This document shows, piece after piece, positions 1,761 through 11,686 of a stretch of 21,632 nucleotides of DNA. This stretch comes from a virus. Each line of letters begins with the position of its first letter. The first letter of the stretch is position 1. The stretch spans positions 1 through 21,632 of the IMG/VR virus record IMGVR_UViG_3300036861_000105; one strand, written 5' to 3'. The translations under genes were made by a program, and so were the position numbers. Under the pieces are notes generated by a model. It ran no database searches. It was not told the origin of the DNA and worked only from the letters and a program-made list of their open reading frames with translations.

Positions 1761-2123
1761 TTAATAGTCTGCGCCAGCACGGCTCGTCTCAATCCAGCTC
1801 GAACCATTCCACTTGAATGCGATGAATCGTTTCTTGGTGTTGGCTGGGTTGGTAAATGCGCCACCGACGAGGACGAAGGCTGCATTCCAGGTCACTGCGC
1901 CTAGGGCACCGCCGGAGTTATTGAAGATCTCAATGACGAGGTCTTGGGAATACGATGCGGAGGGCGGACTTGTGGGGGCATTGATGGTGAAGGCGGTGCC
2001 GTTAGTGGCGGTAATCGTCTGCCAATGCCCGGCCGCTGCGTTTGGCGTGATGCTGGCGGAGTAGGCTGGGGTTGCCTTCGTCACTTGTAACGATGTAGGC
2101 AGAAGAGACGGAGGAGTTGTCAT
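1761..2123 (-). CDS. Small tail-associated beta protein
   Basis: A 120-residue protein whose ATG overlaps the stop of the upstream spike gene by 4 nt (ATGA). The second half contains LVIEIFNNSGGALGAVTWNA and FVLVGGAFTNPANTKKRFIA, then a KWNGSSWIE ending. This is a small beta-sandwich pattern that recurs in phage tail fibre tips and carbohydrate- or receptor-facing modules. It has no signal peptide and no membrane segment. It lies between a pectate-lyase-type spike and a tail-tip protein, so it may cap or accompany the spike. The function is inferred from fold-like pattern and context. Confidence 0.7.
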   Translation of the reverse strand: MTTPPSLLPTSLQVTKATPAYSASITPNAAAGHWQTITATNGTAFTINAPTSPPSASYSQDLVIEIFNNSGGALGAVTWNAAFVLVGGAFTNPANTKKRFIAFKWNGSSWIETSRAGADY

Positions 2124-3355
2124 CCGATGTTCCCCGTTACGGTCTTATTGGTTCCCGTTCCAGCATCCAGCAGCCCATCCGTTGTATTGGTGCGCAGGTC
2201 GTTGTTGGCAATCACGTAATTGTCGCTTGTCCCCGAAATAACCTGGATGCCGTACTTATGATTTGCTGATGCACCGCCGGCAACATTAAGATTGCCGCAG
2301 CGGTTGTTCACGAGACGGAAAGCGGAAACGTTCGGGGCAATAGTAATGCCTGAGTAGGTATTTGCTGTCTGCTGACTGTTATCTGCTATCGTTACCCCAT
2401 CCACCAATAGATCAGTTGTGGCATCCACGAGGATGCCGTACTGCTGGGCGAGAAGTACTATTCCACCCTTAATGGTTACAAGCTTGTGAGTGCTCGACAG
2501 GTGGATGCCACTCTGTCCACCCTTGACGTAGCACTCATTTAGTTGAATGTCGTAACCCTTAAGGATTTCTACGGCATGGGCCCCAGAGGCCGGGCTATCG
2601 AAGTAGCAATTTGAAAGACGAACCCAACGAGCATCGTGTGCCGCCCCATTGTTAGCGATCTGGAGTTGGGGATTAAAGCCATTAACGATTTCGACACCAA
2701 TCATGTTCAGGGTGTCTGTTCCCGAATCAACAAGGATGCCCTGCGCCGCCGATGCAGAGTTGGTGGCAGCCAGATATACATTCTCCATTCGAGTGGAGAT
2801 GCAGGTATCTGCCATTACGATTCCGCGATTCAGCCCCCCGCCCGTAACAGAGGCAGAGTCGTCGATCTTTACATTCTTCAGGAGTCCCGTCGCAGCCCCA
2901 CTCAGATAGATTGCATCCCATCCGCTTCTAATAGCGACGTTTTCAATGAGGTAGTCGCCTACTGTCGTAAGACTTATGCCCCGCCCCGCAGTCCTGGTAT
3001 TGCCGGACGAGTAGCAAGTGATAGCCATGTCTCGAATTGTAAAAACAGACTTGTTCGAGACAGTAATAGCGTTTGCTGTAGCACTTTCGAGATGCAAATG
3101 GGTTGTCCACATACCCGCACCACGAAGAATTATTTCATTGAACGACGGAATTAGACCTGAGGTAATGCGATAAGTCCCAGCGGGAAAGAAGACAGTGGCC
3201 CCAGCGGACGCGGCTGCTAGGGCAGCGTTGATTGCGGATGTGTCATCTGTACCCCCATCGCCCGTAGCCCCAAACATCTTCACGTCTACATGGAAATTAT
3301 GTAGGGTGGAGTGGCTAGGGTTATTACGCGGTGTTGTGGGCCCGGGCTGTGGCAT
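2120..3355 (-). CDS. Tail spike with pectate-lyase-type right-handed beta-helix
   Basis: A 411-residue protein. Residues about 22-75 carry the hallmark of the pectate lyase 3 superfamily: VDVKMFGATGDGGTDDTSAI, then a GATVFFPAGTYRI segment. The rest is a long series of short beta rungs (IENVAIRSGWDAIYLSG, LLVDGVTIADNSQQ, YVIANNDLRTN), as expected of a right-handed parallel beta-helix. Phage proteins of this kind are trimeric spikes that bind or cleave host surface polysaccharides. Catalytic residues cannot be assigned by eye. ATG overlaps the tape measure stop (TGATG), placing the gene where receptor-binding proteins are common. The N-terminal 20 residues probably attach it to the virion. Confidence 0.85.
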   Translation of the reverse strand: MPQPGPTTPRNNPSHSTLHNFHVDVKMFGATGDGGTDDTSAINAALAAASAGATVFFPAGTYRITSGLIPSFNEIILRGAGMWTTHLHLESATANAITVSNKSVFTIRDMAITCYSSGNTRTAGRGISLTTVGDYLIENVAIRSGWDAIYLSGAATGLLKNVKIDDSASVTGGGLNRGIVMADTCISTRMENVYLAATNSASAAQGILVDSGTDTLNMIGVEIVNGFNPQLQIANNGAAHDARWVRLSNCYFDSPASGAHAVEILKGYDIQLNECYVKGGQSGIHLSSTHKLVTIKGGIVLLAQQYGILVDATTDLLVDGVTIADNSQQTANTYSGITIAPNVSAFRLVNNRCGNLNVAGGASANHKYGIQVISGTSDNYVIANNDLRTNTTDGLLDAGTGTNKTVTGNIG

Positions 3356-4944
3356 CAGAGTCCTGTCGTCGAGTTACGTGCCTTTAGTTTCAACAAGCCA
3401 TCACGAACCTTGCGGACTACTTCCAGACCGGTTACGTCACCGTTGATGTTGATGGTGATTCCGCCCATGCCCATTTCGTTGTTGATACCGCTTAGGACTT
3501 CGCCCTTGTGGATACGGGCCAAGCCTGTGCGGAGAACTTCGCCGCCATGCTGCCCAGACGGCGGGGTGCCGAACCGGGATGGAACCTGGCCTTCAAAGGA
3601 ACCCGCTGGCTTAGCTTCGCCACTAAGGGTGAGGAAGTCCTTCAGTACGTTGTAGGCCTTGAGGATCGTTTCGATAAGAGTTTTGACCACACCGATGATG
3701 GCATTGACTACAGCAAGCACCGGACCCTTAATAACCAGCCATGCTTCAACGAAGCGATCCTTGATGAATTCAACTATGCGAGCAAGGAAGTTGACAATCG
3801 GTTCTACGAACTTGTCCCGAACGAACGTCACAACGGAGAGGGCTGCCGTGATGATCTTCGCGAGCCATTCGATGAGCTTCGTGATGAGGAAGATGACGAT
3901 GGGAAGCACTTCCGTTATCACCTTGAATGCGATGTACAACTGGACACCGATGACGATGATGAGGGGCTTGAAAACATCCCAGAGCTTCTTGAGTAGGGTC
4001 CACAATGCGGCGAACATCGGGCCAAGATTTGATTGAAGAACATGCCAGACCTGGGTGGCGGCCTCCACAAGATCCTTGCCCATGGATATCGCCACGGGCC
4101 TGACGATGTCCCATATCTTCTGAAACCATTCAATGATGGGACCAAGGGCACTACTGCCCTCTTGCAACGTCGCCCATAAATCCATGACGAACTGCTTGGC
4201 TTCCCTGAAGGCTGGTCCCACGTTTTGCCGCAGGAAGTTTGCAACGACGGTGAGTTTCTCGGCTAAGAATGTGAATGCGGGTGCAACGAATTTACCGACC
4301 TGTTCGCCCAGGTTGCCAAGTGCTACAGACATCTTGCCAGATGCCGTAGCCTGGGCCTCAGCACTACCACCAAACTCTCTCGTCAATTCCCCAAGGATGA
4401 ACTTCTGAGCACGGAGCACTTGGCCCTGTTCCACCCACTTGCCCACCATCTCGGTTTGTTTCTCGGTGAAACTCACACCCACTCGACGCAAGGCAGTCAT
4501 CCCGAGAATGGGGTCTTGCAACGCCTTACCCACCTGGATAGCCGAGGACTTGAAATCCTGACCCAGGGCCACCGACATGTCGGTAATAGTCTGCGTGGCC
4601 TGGTTAAAGATGTCGTTACCTTCACCCACGCGGTTCTGGATGTTGGTGAAGGTCAGCAGCAGATTCTCGCCAGATTGGATCGCCTCGTCGTCAATGCCGG
4701 TCTTCTTGGCAATGGCAGCAGCAAGGTTTTCCACTTCCTTGGCCGTAACGTTCGCAGCATTCCCCGTAGATTTGAGGACGGCCCCGGTCTGGGCCGTTAT
4801 CTTTTCCTGTTCCTCAAACTGTGAGAACGCATAGGCTGCGCCGGCAGCCAGGGCCGCCAGGCCGCCAGCAACAACCTTCAGGCCCTTCGAGAATTTGGAT
4901 GTCCGCGTGGTGACATCTACGGTCAGGGTGCTAATCGTTGGGAT
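3355..4944 (-). CDS. Tape measure protein, probable non-canonical ATC start
   Basis: The tape measure protein sets tail length and is threaded through the tail tube. The open frame runs to a TGA at 4951-4953 with no in-frame ATG, GTG or TTG until GTG at 4734. The sequence upstream of that GTG is clearly coding: IPTISTLTVDVTTRTSKF, then SKGLKVVAGGLAALAAGA, a classic tape measure N-terminus. An ATC codon at 4942-4944 lies 7 nt after GGGGGGTG, a good ribosome site, giving about 529 residues (MPTISTLTVD). Residues about 260-430 are strongly hydrophobic and helical (LPIVIFLITKLIEWLAKIIT), as usual for the membrane-interacting part. The Gly-rich C-terminal region is followed by a short amphipathic tail. 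At this size a fairly short tail is expected (roughly 80 nm at 1.5 A per residue; inference). The family is secure; the start is not. Confidence 0.85.
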   Translation of the reverse strand: MPTISTLTVDVTTRTSKFSKGLKVVAGGLAALAAGAAYAFSQFEEQEKITAQTGAVLKSTGNAANVTAKEVENLAAAIAKKTGIDDEAIQSGENLLLTFTNIQNRVGEGNDIFNQATQTITDMSVALGQDFKSSAIQVGKALQDPILGMTALRRVGVSFTEKQTEMVGKWVEQGQVLRAQKFILGELTREFGGSAEAQATASGKMSVALGNLGEQVGKFVAPAFTFLAEKLTVVANFLRQNVGPAFREAKQFVMDLWATLQEGSSALGPIIEWFQKIWDIVRPVAISMGKDLVEAATQVWHVLQSNLGPMFAALWTLLKKLWDVFKPLIIVIGVQLYIAFKVITEVLPIVIFLITKLIEWLAKIITAALSVVTFVRDKFVEPIVNFLARIVEFIKDRFVEAWLVIKGPVLAVVNAIIGVVKTLIETILKAYNVLKDFLTLSGEAKPAGSFEGQVPSRFGTPPSGQHGGEVLRTGLARIHKGEVLSGINNEMGMGGITININGDVTGLEVVRKVRDGLLKLKARNSTTGL

Positions 4945-6685: not shown

Positions 6686-7045
6686 TTAGTGAATACTGGC
6701 CCTCAATACAGATGCCATGGCGGTCACGAGTGCGGTTGTAGATTCGTTCCCCGCCTCTTCCTCAAACGGCTGGGCAGCCATGAATGTGGTACCGAACTCC
6801 ACGAATCGGGCATACGGGACGTCAGAGCCCACCTTGGATGTGGCACCGTCTCCGAAGGAGCTGGTTTCCACTACGCGGATGCTCGAGGCCAGCCGGCCAG
6901 TGTCTCGAGGTGCTCGGGAAATCATGGCCCTCGCCACAATCTCCCCGCCGGCCTTGGTAGCGGCAGGTGATGCGGCCTCAATCTCGGCCTTCACTCTGGC
7001 CAAGGCGGCCTTTGTTTGCGGGATGCCTCGCACGAATAAGCTCAT
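6686..7045 (-). CDS. HK97 gp10-like head-tail joining / tail completion protein
   Basis: A 119-residue protein. An N-terminal helix (PQTKAALARVKAEIEAASPA) is followed by ARAMISRAPRDTGRLASSIR and VPYARFVEFGTTFMAAQPF, the signature of the HK97 gp10-like family (APRDTGRLxxSI and YAxFVEFGT). These proteins join head and tail or complete the tail. ATG overlaps the stop of the upstream secreted-protein gene (TGATG), so the latter is translated in the same operon. Confidence 0.85.
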   Translation of the reverse strand: MSLFVRGIPQTKAALARVKAEIEAASPAATKAGGEIVARAMISRAPRDTGRLASSIRVVETSSFGDGATSKVGSDVPYARFVEFGTTFMAAQPFEEEAGNESTTALVTAMASVLRASIH

Positions 7046-7443
7046 CAGGCAAGCACCTCATAGTCCAGTTCGACGATGGCCTTGTGGTGGCCGTAGTCCC
7101 CGACCCCGCTGCCAGTCTTGTAGAGCCCCTGAACGCACCACAGTCCCGGCTCGAATGGGACATAACCGTTGTAGAACGGGATATCGTGGGTGTTGAAGCA
7201 ACCATTAGCATCCATGCGGACGGTGATGGCGACGAAGTACTCAAGCGTTCCCATCTGGCTGGGTGCCTGTACGAAGAAGGAGACATCCTTGTTCGCACCG
7301 TAACCGCATCCGCTAAGGAAGACGTGGTCACCGACGTAGGTCGGGGTCGGATCTATGAAGAGTGTGTTGGTCTCACCTGCTGTAGCAATTTCAGCAATGC
7401 TCAGGAACATGAGGACGAGCGGCAGTACAATTAGTCTCTTCAT
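7045..7443 (-). CDS. Small secreted protein with Ig-like pattern, inserted in the head-tail joining genes
   Basis: ATG at 7443 overlaps the connector stop (TGATG), giving 132 residues; an earlier ATG at 7455 is less likely. The N-terminus MKRLIVLPLVLMFLSIAEIA followed by TAGET is a clear Sec signal peptide with probable cleavage after ATA near residue 22. The mature part has PTYVGDHVFLSGCGYGANKD, a pattern like bacterial Ig-like beta-sandwich modules of exported proteins, and three cysteines (in SGCGYG, NGCF and LWCVQG). A Sec-exported product is odd in a head-tail joining cluster, because virion parts are assembled in the cytoplasm. It might act at the cell surface, for example in superinfection exclusion. 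That function is inference; the signal peptide is visible. Confidence 0.7.
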   Translation of the reverse strand: MKRLIVLPLVLMFLSIAEIATAGETNTLFIDPTPTYVGDHVFLSGCGYGANKDVSFFVQAPSQMGTLEYFVAITVRMDANGCFNTHDIPFYNGYVPFEPGLWCVQGLYKTGSGVGDYGHHKAIVELDYEVLA

Positions 7444-8282
7444 CAGCCCACCCACACCGCCATACCGCGTTGCGTTAATACGTGGTCAACCTCGGGGATT
7501 CCAGTTGGCTGAGTGATGCTCTGAGCACCGAAGGTAAGAGGCCCGCGCACATCCACCGCTGCGGACATAGCCTCGGCCGGCAGGCCTAGGTTGTCGCCTA
7601 GAAGGCGGTACTGGATGGCACGGAGTGCTGCCTGGCGAAGCTCCAGGTCGGGCTCATCAGCTCCGTACTCGTAAGTGATCTGGACATTGCGGTCCCCGCT
7701 GGTAAAGGTGCCCGTGTCTCGCACCACGGTCCCCGTGGAGTACAAGGCCCATGTAGCTGTCCCGGTCTGGGCTACCCCGCCGATCTTGGCTGACAGAATG
7801 GTGCGCGGTTCGATGCGCGTCAGCCGGATGGTGTCGGTGTCGTCGCCGTCGAGCTTGTCAATGGCAAAGCGCGGGACGAAAGCACGGGCACAGAAGCTCT
7901 CGGCCAAGTCCTCGAACCACTGGCGGGCTTCCTCGAGTGCTGCGACAGAGAATCCCGAGAGGCCCTTCATGGCCGCGATGTCGTTTACTGGCGCGTAGAG
8001 GGCTCCGACTATCTCTGTGTGCGTGGTGATCTTCTGAGCCACGCCGCCGAACGTGCCATTCCAAACAAGGGTGAAGTATTCGAGGTTGGTCTGCGGGGCT
8101 AGCGTGTACTTGTATTGACCGGTAGTTCCATGTGTGGTGGCCGCACCGGTGGCAAAGGCAGTGCCGTCTGCCCTAGTGATGTCTACGGTTACCGCGCCAT
8201 CGGCGTCTGTAGCTACGCCACCCGAATAGAAGGTGACCTCAAGCGTTGCCTGGGTATTGCGGAGAGCGCGTTGGACTGCCAC
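7443..8282 (-). CDS. Head-tail connector (gp6-like) with N-terminal beta domain
   Basis: A 279-residue protein starting at GTG 8282, 5 nt after the upstream stop; a nearby ATG is out of frame. The first 95 residues form a beta domain (LEVTFYSGGVATDADGAVTV, then LEYFTLVWNGTFGG), like the Ig-like BppU-type modules found in other phage proteins. The second half has NDIAAMKGLSGFSVAALEEA and RQWFEDLAESFCARAF, then ELRQAALRAIQYRLLGDNLG, matching helical gp6-type connector proteins that bind the portal ring. A fusion of a beta module to a connector is less common. The connector identity rests on the helical half and on the gp10-like gene downstream. Confidence 0.7.
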   Translation of the reverse strand: MAVQRALRNTQATLEVTFYSGGVATDADGAVTVDITRADGTAFATGAATTHGTTGQYKYTLAPQTNLEYFTLVWNGTFGGVAQKITTHTEIVGALYAPVNDIAAMKGLSGFSVAALEEARQWFEDLAESFCARAFVPRFAIDKLDGDDTDTIRLTRIEPRTILSAKIGGVAQTGTATWALYSTGTVVRDTGTFTSGDRNVQITYEYGADEPDLELRQAALRAIQYRLLGDNLGLPAEAMSAAVDVRGPLTFGAQSITQPTGIPEVDHVLTQRGMAVWVG

Positions 8283-8287
8283 ATGGG

Positions 8288-9121
8288 TTAGCTTCCGAAA
8301 CTGGTCACGGAGGAATCGGCACCCACGCCTACCATTGCCGAGTCGCCCTGTAGTCCGGACATAGCGGAATCGCTATCCATGCCGGAGGAGGAGGAATCCC
8401 CATTCATCCCAGATACTGCCGAATCGCCGTCGTCGATGAAGATAAAGATTTGCGGTGGAGCAATGACGGTGACTGTCTGGCCGGTCCATACCACCGCACC
8501 AGGCGTAACCAGGATGACGGTTGCTATCGAAACAGTCACCGTTCGGCCGGCCCATGAAACCGACCCAGCGACAACCGGAACGGTGATCGCCTGGGTAACC
8601 GCCTGGCCGGACCAGGTCAGGCTGCCAGCGGTAACCGGGATGACCGTCGCTATGGCGATATTGACGGTCTGTCCTGCCCATATAATGGTTCCGGCTGTTA
8701 TCGGTACTGTTCGGTTCGCGGTGACCGTTTGACCCGACCAGACAACCGCCCCTGCTGTGACTGGGATAACAGTCGCTATTGCGATGTTTACGGTCTGACC
8801 GGACCAAGTTACCGCTGCGGCTGTAACCGGAATCGTCTGTTGCGCTGTGACTGACTGTCCAGCCCAGGTAACCGAACCTGCGGTAACGGGGATAACCGTC
8901 GCAATTGAGACCGTTACCGCTTGACCGGTCCATGTCACCGTGGCCGCAGTGACGGGAACGGTGATGCTTGCTGTTACAGATTGACCCGACCAAGTAATTG
9001 ATCCGGCGGTAACAACGACCGTAGTACCACCAGCAGCCGGAAGTGTCCCGATCCACCGTCGAGCGGCAGGCTTATTTGTCCTGATGAATGGTCCCGGACT
9101 GCGACGGAAGATGGCGCTCAT
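8288..9121 (-). CDS. Alternating-repeat virion protein
   Basis: A 277-residue protein with ATG in an ATGA overlap with the upstream gene. After a basic, Arg/Pro-rich N-terminus (FRRSPGPFIRTNKPAARRW), residues 35-224 hold nine repeats of the form VPVTAGxVxWxGQxVTxxIx, alternating in length between 20 and 22 residues; the longer copies carry an extra IATV. Residues 232-277 hold five copies of a 9-residue unit (GDSAVSGMN, GDSSSSGMD, SDSAMSGLQ, GDSAMVGVG, ADSSVTSFG). There is no signal peptide. The repeat geometry suggests a beta-solenoid or a string of beta-sandwich strands, hence a fibre or decoration protein. No enzyme motif is seen. The function is unknown; the repeats are directly visible. 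Confidence 0.7.
   Translation of the reverse strand: MSAIFRRSPGPFIRTNKPAARRWIGTLPAAGGTTVVVTAGSITWSGQSVTASITVPVTAATVTWTGQAVTVSIATVIPVTAGSVTWAGQSVTAQQTIPVTAAAVTWSGQTVNIAIATVIPVTAGAVVWSGQTVTANRTVPITAGTIIWAGQTVNIAIATVIPVTAGSLTWSGQAVTQAITVPVVAGSVSWAGRTVTVSIATVILVTPGAVVWTGQTVTVIAPPQIFIFIDDGDSAVSGMNGDSSSSGMDSDSAMSGLQGDSAMVGVGADSSVTSFGS
8291..8428 (-). repeat. Five 9-residue (27-bp) C-terminal repeats
   Basis: The consensus xDSAxSGxx is repeated five times at the end of the alternating-repeat protein. The Asp/Ser/Gly composition could form a loop or metal-binding string, though no RTX nonapeptide (GGxGxDxUx) is present. Confidence 0.75.
8450..9019 (-). repeat. Nine tandem coding repeats, alternating 60 and 66 bp
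   Basis: Protein repeats of 20 and 22 residues alternate (A-B-A-B), so the period of the full unit is 42 residues or 126 bp, present about 4.5 times. Copies share TAGxVTWSGQ; the DNA of individual copies has diverged at third positions, so the array is old or kept by selection on the protein. Confidence 0.85.
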
Positions 9122-9897
9122 CGCACTATGAGGGATGCCATGCGTCGTTGACGCGGGGGAAATGCCAGAGAGGTGGCAGCGGGAGCGGTTGTAACGCGAA
9201 GACGGATGTAACCTAACTCGCTACGGTCTGCCCCACCCGATGCTGTACCTGTTGCGGATAGCACCGCAGCGGCGGAACTCGGCCCCGCGGTCACCGGAGC
9301 GGTCGAATTGTCCCACGACATGTCTCCACCAGCTGTTGTGAGGTTGTCCTGGCGTGCGGTCCATGTGCCGAAAGTGACCCCGGTCTGTGTGGCCGTAACG
9401 TCGGTGGTGTAGGGACTCAAGACGTCAGTATTAGAGACAAGACTGGCGATTACATAGTCGCCCCCAGTAACATCATTATTCGCTGACATCGTCGCGGATA
9501 TCGACGTACCAGTTACTTCGTCAGCACCATATACGACTGTTGGGGTTGACCAAACTTCTCCAGCACCTTTAGAAAAAACTATGATCCACGCGGCAGCGAC
9601 ATTCCATGTGGGAGTACCTTCTGTGACGGTAGGGTTCGTCTCAGGATCAACGGTAGCTTCTTTGTACCAGACCTGCATAGCCATAGATCCGGTATCCACA
9701 CCCGCCACTGTTGTACCGCTCTGCCCTCGGCCAAGAGCAGTCCACCCTGATGTAGTAACTGACCATCCGAGGTCAAACCCCTTTCCACCGGCAATCAGGA
9801 TCATCATGTCGCCTACAACCTGATTGGCGTTAACCGTGGGAGTAATGCTGTTGATGCCGTTGACGGCAGTATCGGCACCTCGAAAACCGATAGCCAT
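9118..9897 (-). CDS. Virion-associated beta-rich protein
   Basis: A 259-residue protein starting at ATG 9897, directly after the stop of the beta-helix gene. The pattern GDMMILIAGGKGFDLGWSVT, TTSGWTALGRGQSG, then AMQVWYKEATVDPETNPTVT and AAAWIIVFSKGAG is common in phage and prophage beta-sandwich proteins often found in capsid- or tail-associated positions. The C-terminus is basic (SLAFPPRQRRMASLIVR). It overlaps the start of the repeat protein by 4 nt, so the two are translationally coupled and may form one structure. No exact function is assigned. Confidence 0.65.
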   Translation of the reverse strand: MAIGFRGADTAVNGINSITPTVNANQVVGDMMILIAGGKGFDLGWSVTTSGWTALGRGQSGTTVAGVDTGSMAMQVWYKEATVDPETNPTVTEGTPTWNVAAAWIIVFSKGAGEVWSTPTVVYGADEVTGTSISATMSANNDVTGGDYVIASLVSNTDVLSPYTTDVTATQTGVTFGTWTARQDNLTTAGGDMSWDNSTAPVTAGPSSAAAVLSATGTASGGADRSELGYIRLRVTTAPAATSLAFPPRQRRMASLIVR

Positions 9898-11136
9898 TTA
9901 CGGGAGAATCTGTCGATTGTTCAAGCAGACGAGGCCGGCCTGCGAGCAGTCGCCGATGTTCTGCGGGCCGTAGTCATTGTTCTGGATGAAGTTGTTGGAC
10001 TGGAAGAACCCGGACGAGCAGCTGGGGATGACGTGGCCGTTACCCGAACGGGCGTTGTTCGTGAACCAGATGTTGTGGCCCGTGTTGTTGATAGCCGTGT
10101 TCCCATCCGCGTTTGTGTTGCTGGAGCCGGATACCAGGATGCCCCCATAAGGGCTTGTACTCGTCGTGTTGTTGCCTTCGATATGGTTTGTACGAATCAC
10201 GAATCCATAGTTCGCTCCGGGCGGGATGGACTTGCCCGAGGCGGCATCACCCGAGGAGATCTCCACCTCGACGCCGGCACTCCAGTTCGCAGTAATCAAG
10301 GAGTTCTCTATGATCCCCCCAGGAGCATCGCAATCCCACCAGAGGCCGTTGAAGCTGTTGTCGTGAATGTAGGAGTTGCTAACCCGCATGTAGTTGACGG
10401 TCTTGATTCCGGCGTCAGTACCCCCGTGGTTCGTGCCGTTGTGGTCGATCTCGGAGTTCTCGACGACTAGGCCGTAACCCACACCGCCGATTCCCGATTG
10501 CCCGTTGCCATGAATGCGGGAGTTCATCACCGTCAGATTGACGAGCAACGAGTTGGCACCATCAATGCCCCGACCCGTTTGTCCCGAGTCCACATACGGC
10601 GAGCAACACAGGTCCACCCAATCGACCGTGAGATTTGTGTCGCCCGTCTGTGCCTCAATGACGCCCGCCCCGGCCGTGCTGTGGATCAACGTCGGAGCAG
10701 TAACCTCACCATTTGGACCGTGCGTTCCCGTAACGCCAACAACCACGTCTCCGTTGTCGTAGTGCAACGCCGCAGTGCCCATCTCGTACTGGCCGACCGC
10801 GAGGCAGTATGTCTGGGCTCCATTGCCTGGAATCACCGTATTCAGGTAGCCCGTCGTCGCATTGAACGGAACCTGCACGCCCTGACATGTTGGAGGTGGG
10901 GGGCTCGGACTAGGGCTAGGGGAGGGACTTGGACTCGGCGAAGGGGATGGGGATGGGCTGGGCGACGGACTGGGCGTGGGACATGGGGGGAGTTGGCCCA
11001 CCCCGCACGTCGGCTTGGCTTTTGGTTCCGCATATGCCGGTACACAGGCAGCAAGCATTAGTACCAGCCCAATGAGATATCGCCCAAATAGCCGACTTGT
11101 ACGGCCATGCCCAGCCTTCCGATGATTCCACTGCAT
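9898..11136 (-). CDS. Exported (probable lipoprotein) right-handed beta-helix protein with Ser-Pro linker
   Basis: A 412-residue protein with a strong ribosome site (AGGAGG, 8 nt before ATG). A basic N-terminus is followed by GRYLIGLVLMLAACVPAYAE: LAAC with Cys31 fits a lipobox, while AYA-E offers a signal peptidase I site, so it is exported either way. Residues 52-84 are Cys-Pro-Thr-Pro, twelve Ser-Pro repeats and Pro-Pro-Pro-Thr-Cys, a rigid wall-spanning linker. The rest is a right-handed beta-helix: NSLLVNLTVMNSRIHGNGQS, YGLVVENSEIDHNGT, MRVSNSYIHDNSFNGLWWD, IIENSLITANWSAG. This is typical of pectate-lyase-like or carbohydrate-binding helix proteins, yet active-site residues cannot be assigned. 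A gene for a surface-anchored protein inside the virion operon is unusual. The export signals are seen; a role in altering the host surface is inferred. Confidence 0.75.
   Translation of the reverse strand: MQWNHRKAGHGRTSRLFGRYLIGLVLMLAACVPAYAEPKAKPTCGVGQLPPCPTPSPSPSPSPSPSPSPSPSPSPSPSPPPPTCQGVQVPFNATTGYLNTVIPGNGAQTYCLAVGQYEMGTAALHYDNGDVVVGVTGTHGPNGEVTAPTLIHSTAGAGVIEAQTGDTNLTVDWVDLCCSPYVDSGQTGRGIDGANSLLVNLTVMNSRIHGNGQSGIGGVGYGLVVENSEIDHNGTNHGGTDAGIKTVNYMRVSNSYIHDNSFNGLWWDCDAPGGIIENSLITANWSAGVEVEISSGDAASGKSIPPGANYGFVIRTNHIEGNNTTSTSPYGGILVSGSSNTNADGNTAINNTGHNIWFTNNARSGNGHVIPSCSSGFFQSNNFIQNNDYGPQNIGDCSQAGLVCLNNRQILP
10900..10971 (-). repeat. (Ser-Pro)12 linker-coding repeat
   Basis: Twelve Ser-Pro dipeptides in a row. 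Serine codons alternate irregularly between AGT, TCG, AGC and TCC and all four Pro third bases are used, so the DNA is not a simple tandem repeat. This points to selection for the peptide rather than to recent slippage. Confidence 0.9.
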
Positions 11137-11159
11137 ACAGGGTGCCTCCTGTGTGCCAC

Positions 11160-11188
11160 GCCCCGGACCGTTCCAGCGGTGCCGGGGC
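11160..11188. other. Strong hairpin upstream of the beta-helix gene
   Basis: GCCCCGG (11160-11166) pairs with CCGGGGC (11182-11188), extended inward by ACCG/CGGT. On the minus strand it lies between the stop of the structural gene (11195) and the ribosome site of the exported beta-helix gene. There is no U tract after it on either strand, so it may be an attenuator, an RNA processing or stabilising element rather than a standard terminator. Confidence 0.5.
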
Positions 11189-11194
11189 TATTGG

Positions 11195-11686
11195 TTATGG
11201 CACTAGTTCTCCTACGTAAGCCGTTCCTTCCCAGGTAACCGCGTCTGCTGGTGCAGCGCTCATCCCGATGGCCATTGCCTGCGATATGCCGCAGGTAAAA
11301 GCCGTCTCCGGGGTCCAGAAGAGTTGGAGACCGGTACGCAGGTTGAACGTCGATGTCAGCAGGGTTGTGAGTGTGCCGGTACCCACCGCAATTTGAGTGG
11401 TGTTGTTTGACTCTGCGGTAAATGTGGCCGCTCCATCACCCGCATTGACCGGGGGCCGCGCAATGCCGGTAGCACCGCCCGAACCTGATGTGTACGTACC
11501 GGTCGCCCGCTTGACGTACCAACGGATCTGTTCCTCGGCAGCGTCCCCGAGCTCTGTGGATTGTCCTAGGTCGATACCCAGGAGCATGAGGCCAACGGTA
11601 GTGCCGGTGATGAGCTCCACCCAGTCAACCGCCACGGTGTTTGACGTGGAAGCAATGGGAACCGTATATACGCGCGGGCGGAACAT
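11195..11686 (-). CDS. Conserved phage structural protein
   Basis: A 163-residue protein whose ATG overlaps the upstream stop (TGATG). The sequence VELITGTTVGLMLLGIDLGQ, then STELGDAAEEQIRWYVKR and a TSGSGGATG loop, followed by AATFTAESNNTTQ, belongs to a common but uncharacterised phage and prophage structural type recognised by LGQS.ExGDAxEE. Ala- and Pro-rich closing strands (SAAPADAVTWEGTAYVGELV) complete a beta domain. The position soon after the capsid gene suggests a capsid-associated or decoration protein; no experimental role is known to me. Confidence 0.7.
   Translation of the reverse strand: MFRPRVYTVPIASTSNTVAVDWVELITGTTVGLMLLGIDLGQSTELGDAAEEQIRWYVKRATGTYTSGSGGATGIARPPVNAGDGAATFTAESNNTTQIAVGTGTLTTLLTSTFNLRTGLQLFWTPETAFTCGISQAMAIGMSAAPADAVTWEGTAYVGELVP

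Follow-up and report, generated by a model that had tools for sequence, protein, structure and literature searches.

An exported β-helix protein with a Ser-Pro linker predicted from the virion operon of an uncultured phage

Phages are known to encode exported proteins that reside in the host envelope, and the β-helix protein g15 described here is a variant of this class. Lambda Lom and Bor and the T5 protein Llp belong to this class and resemble our reading of g15, but they have other folds and come from phages of diderm hosts. Pectate-lyase-like phage spikes and depolymerases (PF12708/PF13229) share with g15 a right-handed β-helix encoded in the phage late region, and a β-helix protein from a phage late operon can readily receive a tail-spike annotation. 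However, the spike-type proteins that we examined are signal-less, whereas g15 combines a signal, a Ser-Pro linker and a high cysteine content. A further parallel is provided by the Ltp-type superinfection exclusion lipoproteins (phage TP-J34), which are located on the outer side of the membrane and prevent the injection of DNA (PMC3952083), and which have a disordered stretch between the signal and the functional domain (PMC11480721). Like Ltp (PMC3952083), g15 is phage-encoded and is predicted to be exported and tethered outside the membrane. Unlike Ltp, a protein of about 142 residues with two HTH-type domains whose gene belongs to the lysogeny module, g15 is a 412-residue β-helix protein of a virion operon; the Pfam search found no repeated HTH-type Ltp domain in it, and no sequence relation between the two was established.

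The window, namely the whole stretch of 21,632 nucleotides analysed here, is an IMG/VR fragment (21.6 kb) from an uncultured phage and carries terminase, portal, protease, capsid and tail genes. In it g15 is positioned amid the virion (particle-building) genes, between the capsid and head-tail genes (Table 1). The initial annotation had placed the gene correctly; its frame is on the minus strand, the plus strand having internal stops there. The start codon has AGGAGG 8 nt upstream, as it does in the orthologue from L002, which is the only close relative found (90% identical).

Table 1. Features of the g15 locus and of other proteins in the window
Feature	Position	Strand	Remarks
g15, exported β-helix protein (predicted), 412 aa	9898..11136	-	ATG at 11136, TAA at 9898; orthologue in L002
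g15 signal sequence, residues 1-36	11029..11136	-	n-region 1-20 (+5), h-region 21-30, LAAC lipobox (C31), AYA/E37
g15 Pro/Ser linker, residues 53-83	10888..10980	-	(Ser-Pro)12 at 56-79
g15 mature β-helix domain, residues 84-412	9901..10887	-	six cysteines (84, 111, 178, 269, 397, 404); Pfam match at residues 187-295
g14, 259 aa, directly downstream of g15	9118..9897	-	97.7% identical in L002; cassette partner
g16, 163 aa, directly upstream of g15	11195..11686	-	92.6% identical in L002, 65% in L013; cassette partner
Stable hairpin GCCCCGG..CCGGGGC in g16-g15 gap	11160..11188	-	hairpin with a different stem sequence there in L002
Predicted small hairpin ACAGG..CCTGT with Shine-Dalgarno and start codon of g15	11133..11156	-	same fold in L002
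g4, pectate-lyase-like spike, signal-less	2120..3355	-	likely virion β-helix; internal contrast
g11, 131-136 aa, second signal-bearing protein of the operon	7045..7455	-	between head-tail adaptor and g10

The Sec-type signal with two cleavage options and the linker of 12 Ser-Pro repeats bracketed by cysteines, both claimed in the initial annotation, were recovered. The N-terminus of g15 (MQWNHRKAGHGRTSRLFGRYLIGLVLMLAACVPAYA, then EP after the cleavage site) contains both a lipobox, L28-A-A-C31, and a site resembling that of signal peptidase I, A34-Y-A36/E37, and the (Ser-Pro)12 tract is exact from S56 to P79 with C52 and C84 on its flanks. By a rule-based call that requires a basic n-region, a hydrophobic core and a signal peptidase site, g15 classifies as a Sec-exported protein, and among the 29 window proteins checked it ranks first in 12-residue hydrophobicity (2.98). 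The signal rule was positive for two of these 29, g15 and g11 (MKRLIVLPLVLMFLSIAEIATA), and for 0.76% of shuffled virion proteins and 0.3% of shuffled g15 sequences. For g11 the only relative found was a 100% identical copy in L030. A Tat signal was rejected for g15 by inspection, the RR motif being absent. Bacterial lipoproteins are recognized by a lipobox of the form [LVI][ASTVI][GAS]C ending the h-region; LAAC31 of g15 is the same in L002, but AYA/E37 competes with it, and the distant homologues described below have no lipobox. The sequence is compatible with either a lipoprotein (C31) or a plain secreted protein cleaved by signal peptidase I after A36.

Comparison with L002 suggests that this signal is under purifying selection. 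In the orthologue the n-region has drifted, whereas the hydrophobic core, the two cleavage sites and every cysteine are retained. The dN/dS ratio is 0.10 over the whole gene and 0.067 over the β-helix; within the signal it is 0.076 for the h- and c-regions (one non-synonymous change) versus 0.80 for the n-region, a contrast that is indicative only, as these segments are short. In a working signal peptide the n-region is free and the hydrophobic core and cleavage region are fixed, which is the pattern that this contrast would reflect. L002 lacks four residues of the Ser-Pro tract, a difference in length of the sort expected in a spacer.

The right-handed β-helix proposed earlier is supported by the Pfam Beta_helix model (PF13229; E=2.5e-9, 37.4 bits against a cut-off of 25.9), which was the sole Pfam match of g15. 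A test for pectate-lyase-like spikes gave no PF12708 or PHROG tail spike match for g15, whereas g4 gave strong matches. No solved structure matches g15 by sequence, and the PADLOC defence profiles gave no match to it. The two AlphaFold models of the structure are poor (mean pLDDT 42 and 47), and the PDB matches listed for them, which are mostly right-handed β-helices and include pectin methylesterases and tailspikes, all fall short of E<=0.001, so that with such low model confidence they lend slight support, and to the fold class only. Cysteines make up 2.7% of g15, whereas the capsid, portal, protease, tail-tube and tape-measure proteins have 0-1 cysteines; the β-helix is probably stabilised by disulphides.

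Distant homologues retain the β-helix behind different N-termini. In L008, where the capsid protein shares 77% identity with that of the window, a gene upstream of terminase encodes a 401-residue protein that aligns to the g15 β-helix at 27% identity (pairwise E=2e-4). Two phage contigs, L019 and L020, have copies that are 87-88% identical to it over the β-helix, the L020 gene lying downstream of the capsid gene on the same strand. The L008 protein starts with a membrane (TM) anchor followed by a PSPSPSPEPTPEPT linker, and the L019 and L020 proteins with a Sec signal ending ALA/DDP followed by a Thr/Pro linker; these N-termini are unrelated to that of g15. Both the six β-helix cysteines and the combination of an export signal with a Pro-rich linker are common to all five proteins (g15 and its homologues in L002, L008, L019 and L020). 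All five are likewise among the 14 entries that the signal rule flagged in a survey of 215 frames, a set that is not fully independent (L008 overlaps L018, and L020 overlaps L033) and in which some other flagged entries use doubtful internal starts. The L020 homologue gave a weak PADLOC match to PD-T4-6 (E=0.0014) over residues 20-107, corresponding to the signal and low-complexity linker, which we judged compositional. The genes directly 3' of the β-helix gene in L008 and L020 were dropped as g14 homologues for want of support in pairwise BLAST. Among the structural genes of L020 there is also one for a glycosyltransferase-like protein of the PHROG moron category (2885-3835), and both L008 (18672-19259) and L009 (12246-12833) encode, after the tail genes, a signal-bearing RTX-repeat protein (PF00353) with a Pro/Thr-rich C-terminus.

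These homologues bear on an alternative, namely that g15 is a virion appendage such as a head or tail fibre or a spike, with the hydrophobic N-terminus serving as a particle anchor, or with export followed by docking at lysis via a neighbour like g14. Its location between capsid and head-tail genes, among likely virion genes, and its co-transfer with g14 and g16 are what such an appendage would predict. What lies between g18/g19 and the head-tail adaptor differs among the capsid relatives: L004 and L005 encode there large pectate-lyase-like proteins, which again favor an appendage, L010 has a 274-residue protein without a Pfam match, and L007-L009 have nothing comparable. However, the virion-type β-helices available for comparison (g4 and those of L004 and L005) are all without a signal, g15 is unlike the major virion proteins in its cysteine richness, and a single domain has been given export signals by three unrelated N-termini, which implies that annotation of the g15 family as spikes is probably wrong. 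We consider an appendage unlikely: g15 is very probably exported, and it is probably not part of the virion. Since the homologues keep export by means of different signals, g15 appears to serve the phage in remodelling the surface of the infected cell and not as a component of its particle. The cell-surface destination put forward in the initial annotation is accordingly retained as regards export and a surface or secreted, non-virion fate, for which the selected signal and the non-homologous N-termini speak, and the precise role is discussed below in conditional terms.

Searches for relatives beyond these phages were largely negative. Neither g15 nor the L008 homologue found anything by tblastn in 50,697 phage records, and scans of genome contigs with g15 and with the capsid alignment yielded no cellular relative and no prophage. 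The best cellular match of g15 is the Azospirillum protein WP_109071545.1 (29% identity over 281 aa, E=3e-12), a plasmid-encoded β-helix protein of 937 aa with CBM60 xylan-binding modules. It has the GLW-D..EN..N..G..EIS pattern in common with g15, but differs in possessing CBM60 and Ig-like domains and in lacking C269 of the phage cysteine framework. As this match outscores the L008 homologue, two phage lineages might have recruited a cellular family separately; a single phage lineage is favored by the six cysteines in common. With respect to hosts, the L019 record encodes a WhiB protein, a family confined to Corynebacterium among 14 control genomes, and that phage, at least, probably infects an actinobacterium.

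Both the class of fold and the Azospirillum relative suggest that g15 acts on glycans. One way to read this is that g15 is a secreted carbohydrate-active auxiliary, which attacks matrix or environmental polysaccharide instead of a receptor and thereby aids the infected cell or the release of progeny. The pectin-enzyme-like fold class and the CBM60 modules of the cellular relative are in line with it, as is a large protein with a polysaccharide deacetylase domain (PF01522) in L013 (12295-13788), a glycan enzyme in a comparable slot near the g16 homologue. Against this, g15 itself has no identified catalytic or binding site, no CBM and no sequence match to a solved enzyme, and we regard such an auxiliary as rather improbable.

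In the interpretation that we favor, with a probability of roughly 0.55, g15 is produced late in infection, is exported, and acts on glycans either tethered to the envelope or in secreted form; receptor masking would be its most likely benefit. The protein would be translated alongside the virion genes, taken out of the cytoplasm by the Sec system, and cleaved, either at C31 to give a lipoprotein or after A36 to give a secreted protein. The stiff Ser-Pro spacer would keep the β-helix off the membrane, at the level of the cell wall or farther out; if the host is monoderm, anchoring by lipid or by a membrane segment, combined with a Pro-rich spacer, would place it in or outside the wall. There it might bind, and perhaps modify, a surface glycan, such that infected cells and their debris present a masked or altered phage receptor, to which neither progeny nor rival phages re-adsorb. 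That exclusion, one of the functions initially suggested, or receptor masking is the main role of g15 is our preferred but tentative view. If the role is receptor masking, exclusion would here be encoded by uncultured phages within the virion operon, with an effect comparable to that of the Ltp-type lipoproteins.

The timing of expression and the mobility of the gene can be judged from its neighbourhood. Late expression, as originally claimed, is suggested by gene order only. No promoter-like site above chance was detected near g15, so that it is probably read with the operon; Rfam and tRNA searches gave no match, and the promoter and terminator counts did not exceed those of shuffles. Two hairpins are predicted before and over the start of g15 (11133-11188, minus strand); the strong one in the 58-nt gap between g16 and g15 (11160-11188; z -2.98 and -2.05) may serve in translational control or transcript processing. 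While the capsid proteins of the window and L002 are 47% identical, the products of g14, g15, g16 and g17 are 98, 90, 93 and 80% identical, indicating that this cassette moved or recombined as a unit. Such horizontal movement, together with the tyrosine integrases of the relatives L008 and L009, is what one would expect if g15 were a lysogenic-conversion moron, expressed from the prophage and changing the surface of the lysogen. The want of a promoter of its own, its tight packing with virion genes and a window record without an integrase (though this is a fragment) make a moron very unlikely. Under the favored reading of a late, exported glycan-acting protein, it is conceivable, if quite doubtful, that the mobile cassette pairs a surface-tethered β-helix with virion surface proteins directed at the same host glycan, with the former masking or altering this glycan on cells that are dying and the latter binding it on new ones. 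In L005, an HNH-like frame (10530-10982) directly upstream of the head-tail adaptor gene opens by repeating the initial residues of the adaptor (VAVQRVLRNTQAT versus MSVQRALRNTQAT in the adaptor) and resembles a homing-type insertion.
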